From a virus: a stretch of DNA of 29,003 nucleotides. This document shows, one piece after another, positions 3,626-26,880 of the stretch (the first letter of the stretch is position 1; each line of letters opens with the position of its first letter). The stretch is taken from positions 1-29,003 of IMG/VR virus record IMGVR_UViG_3300047300_000074. The stretch is one strand, 5' to 3'. The position numbers and the translations under genes were made by a program. The notes beneath the pieces are model-generated. The model was not told where the DNA came from. It was given only the letters and a program-made list of their open reading frames with translations, and made no database searches.

Positions 3626-3841
3626 ATGCGTACTGATTCAAAATATCTGTTAGCATTAGCGAAACAGGTCACAAGACCAGATATACCGTTGCCCGTATTG
3701 AAAGGGCAATCCCCTAAAATACAAGACAACAACCAGTCCATTGCTTTAGGGGCAATTAATGAAGCAACTCAATCTAATTTGCGAAGCCAAACTCAACCTG
3801 TCCGAAAAGGCCGAAAACGGAAAGCCGACAGGAAAGATTGA
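3626..3841 (+). CDS. Possible small ORF overlapping the protease start (doubtful)
   Basis: This is a 71-residue reading frame starting seven bases after the portal stop. It fills the portal-protease gap and runs 83 bases into the protease gene in another frame. It has no clear ribosome binding site (A-rich TGATAAAAAATG) and uses codons such as TTA and ATA more than its neighbours. The product is basic at its C-terminus (RKGRKRKADRKD) and matches nothing I recognise. The same bases hold two inverted repeats, so the stretch may be an RNA leader and not a gene. I would keep it only as a doubtful call. Confidence 0.22.
   Translation: MRTDSKYLLALAKQVTRPDIPLPVLKGQSPKIQDNNQSIALGAINEATQSNLRSQTQPVRKGRKRKADRKD
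3689..3709 (+). promoter_or_regulatory. Hairpin in portal-protease leader
   Basis: TTGCCC (3689-3694) pairs with GGGCAA (3704-3709) across a nine-base loop. The same TTGCCC could instead pair with a second GGGCAA at 3750-3755, which overlaps the protease ribosome binding site, so two mutually exclusive folds are possible. Regulation is inferred from complementarity alone. Confidence 0.35.
3711..3752 (+). promoter_or_regulatory. Inverted repeat sequestering the protease ribosome binding site
   Basis: CCCCTAAA (3711-3718) is perfectly complementary to TTTAGGGG (3745-3752), with 26 bases between. The right arm contains the Shine-Dalgarno AGGGG of the prohead protease (ATG at 3759). If formed, the helix would hide the ribosome binding site and lower protease translation. 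This is visible as sequence symmetry; function is inference. Confidence 0.4.
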
Positions 3842-4559
3842 AGCTCGTATCACTACATGGGGCGCTCGTGAGGGCGCTGATGGCCGTAAGTTCTTCTACA
3901 AGGCAGAAGGCTTCATGGAATGGGTGAAGGAATTTGCCAAATCTGGCCGTCCTTTGCCGATGTATGTGAATCACAATTCTGACCAGATTCCGGTTGGTGA
4001 GTGGACATCCATTGAAATGGATGATGACGGCATGAATGCCTCTGGCCGTCTGTTTTTGAACACCACAACCGGCTCCGATTTGTATCAGGTGATGAGCGAA
4101 TCACCCAACATGTTTGGCGGCGTGAGTGTTGGCGCTTACGCTGAAGAATATCAGTGGGTGAAGGAAGATGGCTCCGTCTTCCCGGCTGGCTCCAATGATT
4201 ACTGGGATGAAGGCTACTTCCAAATCACTAAAGGTGGTTTGCGCGAGACTAGCGTTGTCATGCACCCAAACAATCCAAAGGCGGAAATCAAAAAGTTGGA
4301 ATACTTCCGACAAGACGGTTCTGCCGATTTGAAGGTTTTGGAAGAAGCTCTGCGGGATGCAGGTCTTTCCAAGTCGGAAGCGGTTGCCGCCGCATCCGTG
4401 TTCAAGCAGGTTATTGAGCAGCGTGACGCTGTTGAAGAGCCTGCTGAAAGTGCGCCGACTCAGAGTGATTCTGGTGCGGAGGCAACCGAAGCGGAAATTC
4501 TCGCTGCTCTTGAGCAACGCGAACTCCTTAAACTCCTAGACAAACGCCTGAAAGGTTAA
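3759..4559 (+). CDS. Prohead maturation protease, HK97 (S78/U35) type
   Basis: This 266-residue serine protease is packaged in the prohead and removes the capsid delta-domain before expansion. The ATG at 3759 follows AGGGG at seven-base spacing. Catalytic His is H72 in MYVNHNSDQIPVG and catalytic Ser is S123 in FGGVSVGAYAEE, with the spacing and flanking sequence of the HK97 gp4 family. A third-position motif (VMHPNNPKA, about 167-175) precedes a Glu/Ala-rich C-terminal tail (about 215-260) that probably acts as scaffold or is self-processed. The gene sits between portal and capsid, as in HK97, and ends one codon before the capsid start. Confidence 0.92.
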   Translation: MKQLNLICEAKLNLSEKAENGKPTGKIEARITTWGAREGADGRKFFYKAEGFMEWVKEFAKSGRPLPMYVNHNSDQIPVGEWTSIEMDDDGMNASGRLFLNTTTGSDLYQVMSESPNMFGGVSVGAYAEEYQWVKEDGSVFPAGSNDYWDEGYFQITKGGLRETSVVMHPNNPKAEIKKLEYFRQDGSADLKVLEEALRDAGLSKSEAVAAASVFKQVIEQRDAVEEPAESAPTQSDSGAEATEAEILAALEQRELLKLLDKRLKG

Positions 4560-4561
4560 TC

Positions 4562-5911
4562 ATGTCGAAAGAAATCATCGAAAAACTGGATTCCATCGAA
4601 GCTGCTCAAGCTGCGAAAATCCAAGCAGTTGAAGCTGCTATCCCCGCTGCTGTTGAAGCTGTCAAAGCTGAATTCAGCGAAATGGTGTCTGCTCTGGAAG
4701 CCAAAGTCGCCTCCGTGCAAGCTCCTGTCATTCACAAGGAAAAAGCCAAGAGCGTCCGTCAAGATGTGAACCGCCATGTGCGCGAACAACTGAAGGAAAT
4801 CGCTTCTGGCAAGTCCACCTTTGAGAAGCAACTGCAAATCTTTGCAGATGAGTCGCAAATGGAAGCCTACCTGTCGGAAGCCTCGGCTCTGACCGCTGGT
4901 GGCGATGGCAAGGGTGGCCGTACTGCTTACGACCCCGTGTTCCGCGCTCTGCGTCTGGAAAACCCGCTGCGTGGCGTGTCTCGCACTGTGGCTACCGATG
5001 GCTCCAGCTATCAGTTCCGTGTGAAGACTGGCAACGCTGGCGCTCAGTGGGGCTACGGCATCCAGAACAACGGTTCGCCCACCACGGAAAACACTTCCAT
5101 CTGGCAAATCGTGCTGAAAGACATCAACGTGCAATTCCCGATCCGTACTGCGGCTCTGGATGACATCGACGGTCTGGAAGCCAACGTGGTTGACGACATG
5201 CTGGCCGAATTCGCCCAAGCTGAAGCTCAGTCCATGATTTCCAACAACGACCAATCCGGTGACGGCACTTCCGTGTCTACTGGTGGCGCTGATGGTCTGC
5301 GTGGCCTTGACCAGTACGGCGGTGCAAACAGCACCTACACTGGTGGTACGCACTCGACTGCCGCTTTCGGTAGCTCTGGCACTGGCTCCAACACTGGCCT
5401 GCATAGCCTGAACACCTATGACCAGTTGACTACAAACGGCAACACCGTGGGTGCTGGTAACGTGACCTACAAGGACATCGTTAACTTCATCTACGCTCTG
5501 CCGCAGCAGTACTGGACGCCCAACGCCAAGATCATGATGAACAACGTGTTCTTGTCGCAAGTGCGTGGTCTGGTTGACGACAACGGCGCTCCCATCTTCA
5601 ACCGTAATGAAGGTCTGAGCGTTGACGGTATCGTCGGCCAACTGCTGGGCTTCGATGTGGTGGTTAACAGCTATGTTGACGCTCCTGCTCAAGCCGAAAC
5701 CGGCTCCGCTGGCACCAACAGCCTGTACCCTGCGTACTTCGCTGACTGGTCGCGTTTCCACACGATCATCGACCGCCTGAACATGCTGGTTCGTCGCTAT
5801 GACCAGACTCTGCCCGGCTACATCACCTTCTACGGTGAAAAGCGTCTGGCAACGTCTGTGCGCGATCCGTTCGCTGGTGTGCGTTATCGCTCCACAGGCA
5901 CTGCTACCTGA
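4562..5911 (+). CDS. Major capsid protein 1 (HK97 fold, with delta-domain)
   Basis: This 449-residue protein forms the main shell. Residues 1 to about 105 are helical and charged with heptad-like spacing (EKLDSIEAAQAAKIQAVEAA near 7-26), as expected for an HK97 scaffolding delta-domain. After a flexible SALTAGGDGKGGR segment (about 108-120) the mature HK97 core begins with YDPVFRALRLENPLRG. Other landmarks are the E-loop region (about 147-175), FPIRTAALDDIDGLE (P-domain spine), a Gly/Ser/Thr-rich insertion (about 230-285) and the terminal VRDPFAGVRYRS. Codon use is strongly biased toward C/G-ending codons, as expected of a highly expressed gene. A closely related paralogue lies directly downstream after a strong hairpin. 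Confidence 0.95.
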   Translation: MSKEIIEKLDSIEAAQAAKIQAVEAAIPAAVEAVKAEFSEMVSALEAKVASVQAPVIHKEKAKSVRQDVNRHVREQLKEIASGKSTFEKQLQIFADESQMEAYLSEASALTAGGDGKGGRTAYDPVFRALRLENPLRGVSRTVATDGSSYQFRVKTGNAGAQWGYGIQNNGSPTTENTSIWQIVLKDINVQFPIRTAALDDIDGLEANVVDDMLAEFAQAEAQSMISNNDQSGDGTSVSTGGADGLRGLDQYGGANSTYTGGTHSTAAFGSSGTGSNTGLHSLNTYDQLTTNGNTVGAGNVTYKDIVNFIYALPQQYWTPNAKIMMNNVFLSQVRGLVDDNGAPIFNRNEGLSVDGIVGQLLGFDVVVNSYVDAPAQAETGSAGTNSLYPAYFADWSRFHTIIDRLNMLVRRYDQTLPGYITFYGEKRLATSVRDPFAGVRYRSTGTAT

Positions 5912-5926
5912 TAGCAGTAAACAAAT

Positions 5927-5946
5927 GCAGGGGCTTCGGCCCCTGC
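5927..5946 (+). terminator. UUCG-capped hairpin between the capsid paralogues
   Basis: GCAGGGGC (5927-5934) and GCCCCTGC (5939-5946) form a perfect 8-bp, GC-rich stem closed by the very stable TTCG tetraloop, starting 15 bases after the first capsid stop. The downstream run is only TTTG, a poor U-tract. It may therefore be a leaky terminator, an mRNA 3'-end stabiliser or a processing barrier that makes capsid 1 more abundant than capsid 2. The structure is certain; the role is inferred. Confidence 0.75.
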
Positions 5947-5976
5947 TTTGTAGGTTCTTTCATTTAGGATATAGCC

Positions 5977-6990
5977 ATGACCATCACCGAAAAAATCCTC
6001 GACGGAATCAAACAAGCCTACAACGAAGGCAGCAAAGTCACTATCGACCTCAAGGAAGCGTCCTCGTTGACTGGTTCCGGTTCGGGTGTTGGTGGTCGTG
6101 TTCTGTTTGATGACGCATTCGCTGCGTTGCGTTACGCAAACCCCTTCCGCATGGGTTCGCGCAATGTGAAGATTACTGAATCTGACATGCAATTTGTTGC
6201 CAAGACTGGTAACGCGACATATCAGACAAACCCTTGGGGCTACCCCGTCCAGAACAACACTGGTACGCCTAGCACCAACACTTCGATCTGGCAATTGCCA
6301 ACTCGTGCTGTTACTGCTCAGTTGCCGATCCGTACTGCTGTGCTGTCGGATGTGAATGGCCTGCAATCGGAACTGATTGAAGACTTGATGCTGGAATTTG
6401 CTCAGGTCGAAGGTGCTTCGATGGCCGTGAACAACGACCAAGCTGGCTCTACGACAACTGCTACTGGCGCAACATCTGGCCTGCGTGGCTTGGACATGTA
6501 TACGTCTGGCTCTGCTTCGGCATACGGCACTTCTGGCACTGCAATCACTGCCGGTATTCACACTCTGGCCACTGTGGCTCAAACCAGTGGTGGCGTGGTT
6601 TACAACGACATCGTTGATGTGGTCAATACCTTCCCTGCTCAGTACTGGGCGCTTCCGGGCAACGCTTGGCACATCCGTCCGTCCATGATTGACAGCCTGC
6701 GTAGCCTGAAAGATTCTCAGGGTCTGCCGCTGTTCCTTGAGGTTGGCGACGAAGACGGTGCTGCTGTTGGCCGCATGTTTGGTTTCCCCGTGATCCCGAA
6801 CCCGTACCTGTCTACCGGCTTCCCGATTTATCTGGCAAACTGGCCCCGTTTCCTGACCATTGCTGACAATGAGGAAATGAGCATTCAGTTGTTTGAGCAG
6901 ACCACTCCCGGTTTCATGACGATCTACGCAGAAAAGCGTGTTGTCTCGACTGTGCGTGACCCGTTCGCTGGTGTTCGTATGAGCGCCTAA
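5977..6990 (+). CDS. Capsid protein 2, paralogue of the major capsid protein (short N-terminus)
   Basis: This 337-residue HK97-fold protein is clearly homologous to the preceding gene. Shared blocks in the same order are EASSLTGSGSG..GGR / EASALTAGGDG..GGR, DAFAALRYANPFR / PVFRALRLENPLR, LPIRTAVLSDVNGLQ / FPIRTAALDDIDGLE, GLRGLDMY / GLRGLDQY, YNDIVDVV / YKDIVNFI and VRDPFAGVR at the C-terminus. It has only about 26 residues before the conserved cleavage-like segment, against about 105 in capsid 1, so the delta-domain is essentially missing. The ATG at 5977 follows TAGGATAT. It may be a vertex (penton) protein, a decoration-like subunit or a relic of duplication. No disabling mutation is seen. 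Confidence 0.9.
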   Translation: MTITEKILDGIKQAYNEGSKVTIDLKEASSLTGSGSGVGGRVLFDDAFAALRYANPFRMGSRNVKITESDMQFVAKTGNATYQTNPWGYPVQNNTGTPSTNTSIWQLPTRAVTAQLPIRTAVLSDVNGLQSELIEDLMLEFAQVEGASMAVNNDQAGSTTTATGATSGLRGLDMYTSGSASAYGTSGTAITAGIHTLATVAQTSGGVVYNDIVDVVNTFPAQYWALPGNAWHIRPSMIDSLRSLKDSQGLPLFLEVGDEDGAAVGRMFGFPVIPNPYLSTGFPIYLANWPRFLTIADNEEMSIQLFEQTTPGFMTIYAEKRVVSTVRDPFAGVRMSA

Positions 6991-7000
6991 GAGGTGAAAA

Positions 7001-7669
7001 ATGGCAGTTGACAACATTGTTGGATACCCCTTTGGGGCACAAACACGAAATCCGTTCAACTATGCAAAGGTTGAACAGACTTCGCGTGACGTTTCTACGA
7101 ACTGGTTGACTGCCAATGAAATCACCGAACATCTGAACCTGTTTGACGATACAAGTCAGGATGCTTATGTGCTTTCTCTGGAGCTTGCTGTAAGGATGGC
7201 TATCGAGGATTACCTTGGTATGTCCATCTTTGCAACTTCATACAGGGTCTATTACGGCGGCGAGAGCCTTGCAGCAGCGCCTGCAAGCCTTGACATCCCC
7301 GAAGTAAGCCAAGCCTCAGTATCTTCTCCAAACCCCGTCACAATCAGTTCTGTGGCGTATTGGAGCGATGCCAGCCCGTCTGTGCTGACGACTATCCCGA
7401 GCAACCAGTACTACTACGACCCGTCTGGCAACAAGATCATCGTGTCTGGTTTGCCTACCGACATCAACACGGCAATGACGGCTCCAATCGTGGCTCAGTA
7501 CACGGTTGCGGCCAATCCATTGGCTGCGTATCCTGTCATCAAGCAAGCCGGTCTTCTGCTTCTGACGCATCTTTACAACAATCGTGCGAATGCAACAGAA
7601 ACCAAGCTCAAGGACATTCCGTTCGGCGTGACAACCTTGCTTCGTCCTTACAAACCTTTGGTGATGTAA
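7001..7669 (+). CDS. Head-tail connector (gp6/phiE125 gp8-like)
   Basis: This 222-residue protein lies directly after the capsid genes, the usual place for the adaptor that docks under the portal. The ATG at 7001 follows GAGGTG. Family-like features are the N-terminal helical segment 'LTANEITEHLNL...DDAYVLSLELAVRMAIEDYLG' (about 36-75), a central strand-rich part including YYYDPSGNKIIVSG, and a C-terminal helix with 'IKQAGLLLLTHLYNNRA' (about 182-198). The order helix bundle, beta insertion, helix is typical of the phiE125 gp8/HK97 gp6 adaptor group. The assignment is by pattern and position; I could not align it. Confidence 0.72.
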   Translation: MAVDNIVGYPFGAQTRNPFNYAKVEQTSRDVSTNWLTANEITEHLNLFDDTSQDAYVLSLELAVRMAIEDYLGMSIFATSYRVYYGGESLAAAPASLDIPEVSQASVSSPNPVTISSVAYWSDASPSVLTTIPSNQYYYDPSGNKIIVSGLPTDINTAMTAPIVAQYTVAANPLAAYPVIKQAGLLLLTHLYNNRANATETKLKDIPFGVTTLLRPYKPLVM

Positions 7670-22800: not shown

Positions 22801-23264
22801 GGCCGACTGGCCCTACTGGGCCTGCTGGCCCTTCTACCGTTGTTAATGCAACAGCAACTGATTCCAATTTTACGGCCTATGTGGTTGGCGTCAGCACAAG
22901 TGGTTCCAATACGACTCCGTATGTCACTGGTGGTGTTTATTTCAACCCGTCAAACGACTATATGTATTCGTCAGCTTTTCAAGCAACTTCTGATGAGTCG
23001 CTGAAAATGAACTGGCGTGATGTTCCTGTTGATTACATTGAACGTCTTGCTGAAGCAAAACATGGTGTATTTGATTGGATTGAAAGTGGTGAAACTGATG
23101 CAGGTGTATCTGCTCAGTCAATGGCATTGATTCTTACCGAAGTTGTCAAAGCTGGTAAAGACGGAAAACTGTCGGTTAACTACGGTAACGCTGCGCTTAT
23201 CGCTTGCATTAAACTGTCTCAGCGCATTCTCGCGCTTGAACAACAGTTGAAAGAAAAGACATGA
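19854..23264 (+). CDS. Long chimeric tail fibre: Ala-rich stalk, collagen-like tracts, S74 chaperone
   Basis: This 1136-residue fibre is modular. Residues 1 to about 107 form a beta-rich attachment domain. About 108-355 is an Ala/Ser-rich helical stalk with recurring [14 protein letters not shown] units, like lambda Stf. About 358-410 is a conserved module ([12 protein letters not shown].. [20 protein letters not shown]). A fibre repeat [20 protein letters not shown] sits near 677. Gly-X-Y collagen-like tracts span 887-911 (8 triplets) and 950-994 (15 triplets), dominated by GPT. The C-terminus from S1046 (SDESLK, with K1051 five residues on) is a Peptidase_S74 intramolecular chaperone, which should cut itself off after trimerisation. 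The stop overlaps the next start (ATGA). Confidence 0.93.
20200..20920 (+). repeat. Degenerate GCT/GCA-rich low-complexity tract (Ala-rich stalk)
   Basis: About 700 bases dominated by GCT and GCA codons with interspersed TCT, AGT, GAG and AAT encode the Ala/Ser-rich stalk. Units such as 'GC-tct-GAGac-AAtGCtGC' recur imperfectly. It is coding sequence, in frame throughout, and prone to slippage or recombination that would change fibre length. Confidence 0.8.
22512..22835 (+). repeat. Collagen-like Gly-X-Y repeat region
   Basis: Two blocks of GGN-CCN-ACN-type triplet codons encode 8 and 15 consecutive Gly-X-Y units, separated by a 38-residue linker (912-949). Most triplets are GPT with proline in the X position; two (GSP, GAP) carry proline in Y, as do none of the others. 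The synonymous codons vary (GGC/GGG, CCT/CCC, ACT/ACC), so the repeat is kept at protein level and did not arise by recent DNA duplication. Such tracts form trimeric triple helices. Confidence 0.92.
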
Positions 23265-23806
23265 GCCACCTACCAATTTGGTACATAGGAAGTATCCCGA
23301 CAGACGTATGCGATGCGGCTGTCCGGGAATTCATGACCATTGAGCCGCAAGACGCCACTATGGGCGCTGATGGTCAGCATGAGGACAAATCCCATCGGGA
23401 TACTGTTCTTCGATTTGCTCCTGACGGCCATTGGTTTGGCGGCATCCTTCAGGAACATGGACGTTTAGCCAATCAGAAGATGGGCTGGGACTATGAGCTA
23501 ACAGGCCATGAGAACGTCCAATTCGGCTCATACGGGCCTGATGGACACTATGGGTGGCATACAGACACCTTCACACTGTCTGGCCTTCCTATTGAGCGCA
23601 AAGTCAGTGTCGTTTGCATGATGTCAGATCGTGAAGAATATGAAGGCGGAGAGCTTCAAATTCGTCTGTATCAGGATTACACTGCTGACTTGAAAAAGGG
23701 CGACATGATCGCCTTTCCTTCAATTCTTGAACATCGCGTTATTCCGGTGATTTCGGGTATGCGTAGTTCTGCCGTTGTATGGCTTAATGGCCCGAGGATG
23801 CGGTGA
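23261..23806 (+). CDS. 2-oxoglutarate/Fe(II) oxygenase, prolyl 4-hydroxylase-like
   Basis: This 181-residue protein has the full metal and cosubstrate set of the family. H100-x-D102 lies in GWHTDTF, the distal H158 in LEHRV, and the 2-oxoglutarate-binding R168 in GMRSSAVVW. The strands '[21 protein letters not shown]' and '[19 protein letters not shown]' are typical of P4H/PiuC-type double-stranded beta-helix enzymes. It is a predicted hydroxylase using O2 and 2-oxoglutarate. The ATG overlaps the stop of the collagen-like fibre (ATGA), so the two are translationally coupled. A fibre proline is the obvious candidate substrate, which is inference; a host or nucleic-acid substrate is not excluded. 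Confidence 0.88.
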
Positions 23807-26385: not shown

Positions 26386-26880
26386 TTATTTAATTGTGAG
26401 CCTATCTTTACGAACAATCCGAGCGCCAGCGACAGGTTGACCGGCAAGGATGGCATTTTTGATCTTTGTTTTGGATGGCTCTGGAGGTTTGGGGTCGTTG
26501 CACAATTCGCGGTCAAACTGTGCGCCTTCCTCAATTTCCACCGACTCATCCCGATCAACATAGAGCTTGACGATGAAAGACCCGTCAGCAGCCTTTATTT
26601 CGTGGATTCCAGCCGTTTTCATGTTCTCGGCAAGGTATTCCCTCAATCTGTCTGCTTTTCGCTCGTAGGCTGTTTGAAGGGCTTTGATGCGTTTGATGGC
26701 TTCTTTGGCTTGTGAAGCGTCAGATTCGCAGTTGAGAACATAGGCCGCTACTGCATTGGCCTTGTTCCCAAGCATGACCCGGAATTCTTCAAAGGCAGGA
26801 AGTGCCTCGCCAGTTTCCGGGTCAAACAGCGAATCAAGTTGCTCACGAAAGTCATGTGCAAGTTTATACAGAGAAGTCAT
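26386..26880 (-). CDS. Gp157-like siphovirus protein
   Basis: This 164-residue protein fits the Sipho_Gp157 family. It has a long N-terminal helix (MTSLYKLAHDFREQLDSLFD), then 'KANAVAAYVLNCESDASQAKEAIKRIKALQTAYERKADRLREYLAENM' (about 40-87), then a beta-part 'FIVKLYVDRDESVEIEE' and 'ELCNDPKPPEPSKTKIKNAILAGQPVAGARIVRKDRLTIK'. The last block, 'k..idK..ik.al..G..v.Ga.l......l.ik', is the signature. Its function has been linked to phage resistance in some hosts but is not established. The start directly abuts the stop of the upstream gene (TAAATG). Confidence 0.85.
   Translation of the reverse strand: MTSLYKLAHDFREQLDSLFDPETGEALPAFEEFRVMLGNKANAVAAYVLNCESDASQAKEAIKRIKALQTAYERKADRLREYLAENMKTAGIHEIKAADGSFIVKLYVDRDESVEIEEGAQFDRELCNDPKPPEPSKTKIKNAILAGQPVAGARIVRKDRLTIK

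Follow-up and report, generated by a model that had tools for sequence, protein, structure and literature searches.

Most tailed phages build their shell from one capsid protein, according to a review that gives T4 as the exception (PMC3185693). In T4, pentamers of gp24* fill 11 of the 12 vertices, gp24 is believed to have arisen by duplication of gp23, and the two proteins lose 10 and 65 N-terminal residues, respectively (PMC9958956), with copy numbers of 55 for gp24 and 960 for gp23 (PMC5694885). The sequences of the two T4 proteins are only about 20% identical, and the head that they form is large and prolate, with a separate scaffolding core. HK97-type phages and the gene transfer agent RcGTA have one capsid gene. 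Two HK97-fold shell proteins that co-assemble are also encoded by the operons of Family 2B two-component encapsulins, which are nanocompartments of cells and carry cNMP-binding domains. In Roseobacter phage CRP-406 and Synechococcus phage S-CBS3, one capsid protein is fused to its own protease and no second capsid is annotated. Judged by its genes, a large group of small freshwater phages, tailed and known mostly from metagenomes, encodes two related head-shell proteins, hereafter cap1 and cap2.

The window, i.e., the whole stretch of DNA that was analysed, spans 29,003 bases and makes up an entire virus record. Its genes follow a siphophage order, with terminase, portal, S78 protease, cap1, cap2, head-tail adaptor and then tail genes that include an 819-aa tape measure. 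The features of the head region are as follows.

3759..4559, plus strand: prohead protease (S78), directly upstream of the capsid pair (PF04586, E 2.6e-8; PHROG head maturation protease)
4562..5911, plus strand: cap1, major HK97-fold capsid protein of 449 aa whose N terminus forms a long delta/scaffold-like domain (PF05065, 9e-29)
4562..4876, plus strand: delta/scaffold-like domain of cap1, residues 1-105, mostly missing in cap2 (joint alignment; helices from the model)
5922..5951, plus strand: terminator-like hairpin between cap1 and cap2 (folding; comparative hairpin test)
5977..6990, plus strand: cap2, second HK97-fold capsid protein of 337 aa with a short N-terminal helix only (PF05065, 5e-20)
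7001..7669, plus strand: head-tail adaptor, downstream of cap2 (phrog_442, E 7e-12; phrog_40, E 4e-10)

The locus resembles those of HK97-type phages and RcGTA in capsid fold, in the S78 protease-capsid gene order and in the N-terminal delta domain but differs from them in having two capsid genes. Unlike the Family 2B encapsulins, the pair carries no cNMP-binding domain and is flanked by phage genes (terminase, portal, protease and tail genes). Elsewhere in the window are a tRNA-Thr gene (anticodon TGT) at 76-151, at the left end and immediately ahead of a gene resembling that of a terminase small subunit, a 2OG-Fe(II) oxygenase gene at 23261-23806 that adjoins a 1136-aa tail-fibre-like gene, and, on the opposite strand, a gene for a Mu Gam-like DNA end-protection protein (26386-26880, minus strand; phrog_253, E 2e-26).

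The first-pass annotation had described the pair as two tandem HK97-fold capsid paralogues, and the open reading frames, BLASTP, Pfam, PHROG and predicted models all bear this out. The two proteins share 42% identity over 355 columns (BLASTP, E 3e-73), and both belong to the Phage_capsid family (PF05065), with scores of 101.1 bits for cap1 and 72.5 bits for cap2 against a cut-off of 24.2 bits, as well as matching PHROG major head families. AlphaFold2 models, which are monomers of moderate confidence (pLDDT of 73 for cap1 and 74 for cap2), matched RcGTA, HK97, D3 and other capsids in Foldseek with a probability of 1.00. The best PDB match of the cap1 model was the RcGTA capsid (6tb9), and the cap2 model matched both RcGTA (6tb9) and HK97 (8fqk). 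A profile search likewise placed the RcGTA capsid closest among solved structures (E 5e-12), and it was among the best by fold; a search of solved structures with the cap2 profile alone gave no match. Neither protein matched the gp23-type Pfam family at E 0.01, and the duplication is thus most likely independent of that in T4.

The main difference noted earlier between the two proteins, about 105 residues before the shared segment in cap1 and about 26 in cap2, proved exact, as the shared conserved block (EASxLT..G....GG) starts at residue 106 of cap1 and residue 27 of cap2. In a joint alignment, residues 3-68 and most of residues 88-100 of cap1 are occupied in the cap1 family only. The N-terminal region of cap1 is modelled with helices at residues 2-50, 65-81 and 97-110, and a single helix (residues 3-17) is predicted before the shared segment of cap2. 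Cap1 therefore combines the two marks of an HK97-type major capsid protein, a long N-terminal delta domain and an upstream protease, a combination that cap2 alone lacks. The cleavage site of both proteins would lie at the shared segment. The terminal VRDPFAGVR that had been read in both proteins is indeed present in each, followed by an 8-residue tail (YRSTGTAT) in cap1 and by MSA in cap2; the short C-terminal tail sets cap1 apart from cap2 family-wide in the joint alignment. The same alignment has 67 columns that carry one and the same residue in both families at a conservation of at least 90%, against 14 that are conserved within each family but differ between them. Across the cap2 family, the predicted A domain is missing three segments of 8-9 residues (cap1 257-264, 289-296 and 378-386), and the family also has a 3-residue insertion in the predicted E-loop (cap2 84-86), the boundaries of both domains being approximate readings from monomer models. 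In HK97-fold shells, the A domains come together in the middle of each capsomer.

Most of a set of 449 loci came from scans of viral contigs (six) and genome contigs (one), each limited to its best 80 loci. Exactly cap1 followed by cap2 was found in 418 of them, the remainder being put down to truncation at contig ends, to a disrupted cap1 frame (L059/L129 and L394) or to an HNH gene in between (L350). Both genes, in the same order, are present wherever the contig is long enough for a judgement. No relative with a lone capsid gene was seen by these alignment scans among the best 80 loci of each, and a more distant one may exist. The locus L350, the one apparent lone cap1, was rejected as such, since an HNH endonuclease gene (L350:5357-5683; PF01844, E 4e-5) stands after cap1 and is followed by the start of a cap2 that runs off the contig end. 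Two related ORFs, which by eye look like GIY-YIG homing endonucleases and have no Pfam match, lie between cap1 and cap2 at L008:5462-6004 and L199:5815-6528. In L059:4490-5840, cap1 is split after about 150 codons by an in-frame stop, which is either a sequencing error or a real interruption. Related capsid genes also occur in bacterial and archaeal metagenome-assembled genomes (L212-L217), including one labelled Candidatus Nitrosotalea; these are probably phage contigs binned by mistake. The only isolate that matched at E 1e-5 in the phage collection was Methylophilaceae phage P19250A (KX815270), which has the same gene order and both capsids, at 60% (cap1) and 56% (cap2) identity, and whose record annotates the second capsid gene as "hypothetical." Some contigs had been fetched repeatedly, and removal of identical pairs left 281 distinct pairs.

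A phylogeny had been suggested as a means of dating the duplication. In a tree of 68 cap1 and 68 cap2 sequences, the two families lie on opposite sides of one branch with 100% SH-aLRT support, so that the split is deep rather than local and, because the clades are fully separate, the duplication is older than the whole group. Within a genome, cap1 and cap2 share 35-46% identity (median, 41%). Distances among the cap1 sequences correlate with those among the cap2 sequences (Mantel r 0.58, p 0.001), which, together with the separated clades, argues for vertical co-inheritance. Cap2 changes about 1.3 to 1.5 times faster than cap1, with subtree lengths of 17.6 versus 11.8-13.3, and the median cap2/cap1 distance ratio is 1.6. 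Over 1,174 pairwise, non-independent comparisons, the median dN/dS was 0.164 for cap1 and 0.168 for cap2. Values near 1, which the first-pass annotation had named as the sign of decay, were thus not what we found; medians of about 0.17 indicate purifying selection on both genes and, taken with the tree, an old duplication of which both copies have been kept by selection. Universal co-retention, purifying selection and a deep duplication make it well supported by sequence that cap1 and cap2 are two functional capsid paralogues, only cap1 having the long delta/scaffold-like domain. The pair recalls gp23 and gp24 of T4, which are likewise two HK97-fold paralogues with a long N-terminal region on the main one and a short one on the other. 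It differs from them in its higher median identity (41%), in its adjacent genes, in having the predicted scaffold fused to cap1 and in size, T4 being the much larger phage and the longest records of the group being about 37-41 kb.

The region between the two genes is itself conserved in form. A GC-rich hairpin with a T-rich tail was found between cap1 and cap2 in 269 of 280 distinct pairs, as 158 different stem-loops, compared with 2 of 280 shuffled sequences, 2 of 274 regions after cap2, 1 of 277 before cap1 and none of 281 inside cap1. This is the form of an intrinsic (rho-independent) terminator, a GC-rich hairpin and a U-rich tail, and its persistence through changes of the letters themselves is the mark of a functional terminator; we thus refer to it as a predicted terminator. 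In the window, the hairpin core GCAGGGGC-TTCG-GCCCCTGC occupies 5927-5946 and is followed by TTTGTAGGTTCTTT, and its U-tract is weak (TTTGTAGG), so read-through may be high and partial termination is likely. A promoter and terminator scan of the window alone did not rise above shuffles, so that the comparative test was needed, and promoter-like sites in the first 12 kb of the window were no commoner than in shuffles. Codon usage was measured over six NNC/NNT families, as the share of their codons that end in C. The mean fraction was 0.55 for cap1, 0.41 for cap2 and 0.37 for the protease (0.82, 0.71 and 0.49, respectively, in the window), and cap1 exceeded cap2 in 93% of the 281 pairs (p 4e-45, calculated over relatives that are not independent). 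Hairpin and codon bias together probably put cap1 above cap2, i.e., cap1 would be made in excess, and by codon bias cap2 would stand somewhat above the protease.

The earlier claim that only one of the paralogues has a delta-domain holds in the window but not throughout the relatives, as cap2 carries a different N-terminal domain in 13 contigs. There, a 105-aa domain (phrog_2859) is fused in frame to the cap2 N terminus with no stop (L076:5671-5985, L286:4686-5000 and 11 more contigs). These contigs come from two distant parts of the group and have an intergenic gap of about 350 bases; a 24-residue remnant of the domain is found in L039. The same domain begins the protease-capsid fusions of CRP-406 and S-CBS3, which thereby resemble the long cap2 of some relatives, and its occurrence in both settings suggests that the N terminus of cap2 points into the procapsid. 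The domain is also part of a putative DNA-binding protein of jumbo phage PaBG.

Three roles had been offered for the second protein, namely a vertex subunit, a stabiliser or a copy used in a different shell size. Among these, a minor vertex-type subunit appears to fit best, given the predicted attenuating terminator, the weaker codon bias and the short N-terminal peptide, the last being a property that cap2, as a paralogue of the major capsid protein, shares with gp24 of T4. We give roughly an even chance to a division of labour like that of gp23 and gp24, with cap1 abundant and in hexamers and cap2 a minor subunit, most likely in vertex pentamers. Cap1 would then be the abundant subunit that fills the hexamers, and its 105-residue N-terminal domain would act as an internal scaffold before being removed by the S78 protease. 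Cap2, with its short N-terminal helix only, would rely on the scaffold domains of cap1, would probably be cut at the equivalent site and would most likely form pentamers at the 11 non-portal vertices, in convergence with gp24. The partial terminator after cap1 would keep cap2 and the downstream connector genes below cap1. That cap2 is part of the virion and is cleaved is inferred, as are the number of its copies and its vertex position. The trimming of its A domain, as placed on the models, may also speak for the vertex. On the other side, a lower expression level does not by itself name a position in the shell, and the codon bias of cap2, being above that of the protease, means that cap2 need not be rare. 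Moreover, most HK97-type heads make their pentamers from the same protein as the rest, so a vertex protein is not required. The step from minor shell subunit to vertex is taken by analogy with T4 and has about an even chance of being right.

The main rival to a vertex subunit is that individual capsomers contain both cap1 and cap2, at a ratio that may be fixed or variable, so that the shell would have two components and no vertex specialist. A two-component Family 2B encapsulin co-assembles in this way, with variable composition and irregular tiling (PMC12407261), and the two families have much in common, with far more conserved columns identical than different. However, the hairpin and codon bias suggest unequal supply, and the family-wide trimming of the A domain and the E-loop insertion in cap2 suggest a distinct local environment, leaving this explanation unlikely. 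A broader proposal is possible, if doubtful: that this widespread siphophage lineage of about 40 kb has an obligate two-component HK97 shell, in which cap2 is more than a T4-style vertex subunit and either mixes in hexamers or presents exchangeable N-terminal domains to the inside of the procapsid, the conserved terminator setting the ratio.

Cap2 might instead act in few copies, as an assembly factor located at the portal or close to it or as an internal tether, its N terminus presenting a domain to the procapsid interior. The 13 contigs with the in-frame phrog_2859 domain, shared with the CRP-406 and S-CBS3 fusions, and the grouping of cap2 with the connector genes downstream of the hairpin are in keeping with such a role. 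Yet most relatives are missing the extra domain, and the whole HK97 fold of cap2 is under selection, which is more than a tether needs; we consider this role quite improbable. Slightly less probable again is that cap2 serves a different shell size or acts as an assembly chaperone and then leaves the virion. Its want of a long delta domain would suit this, but no size-switching partner or satellite was seen, and universal pairing over a deep divergence is better explained by a head that both proteins share than by an optional one. A recent or decaying duplicate without function is rejected with near certainty, as nothing was found in its support and it is opposed by the dN/dS of about 0.17, by a duplication older than the group and by the failure to see any true lone-capsid relative among the best 80 loci of each scan.

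We found no description of a two-capsid small siphophage, or of P19250A as one, in the open-access literature searched. Preferring a minor, vertex-type cap2, we note that the group looks like a second, independent two-capsid case besides T4, in small and simple phages. The hairpin between cap1 and cap2, the codon bias of cap1 over cap2 and the phrog_2859 domain fused to cap2 are new here. With hundreds of sequenced relatives and one cultured member, P19250A, these phages constitute a natural test of how the HK97 fold splits into specialists, and they offer a test of how a transcription terminator sets the ratio of capsid subunits. The finding would also correct the annotation of the second capsid gene as a "hypothetical protein."
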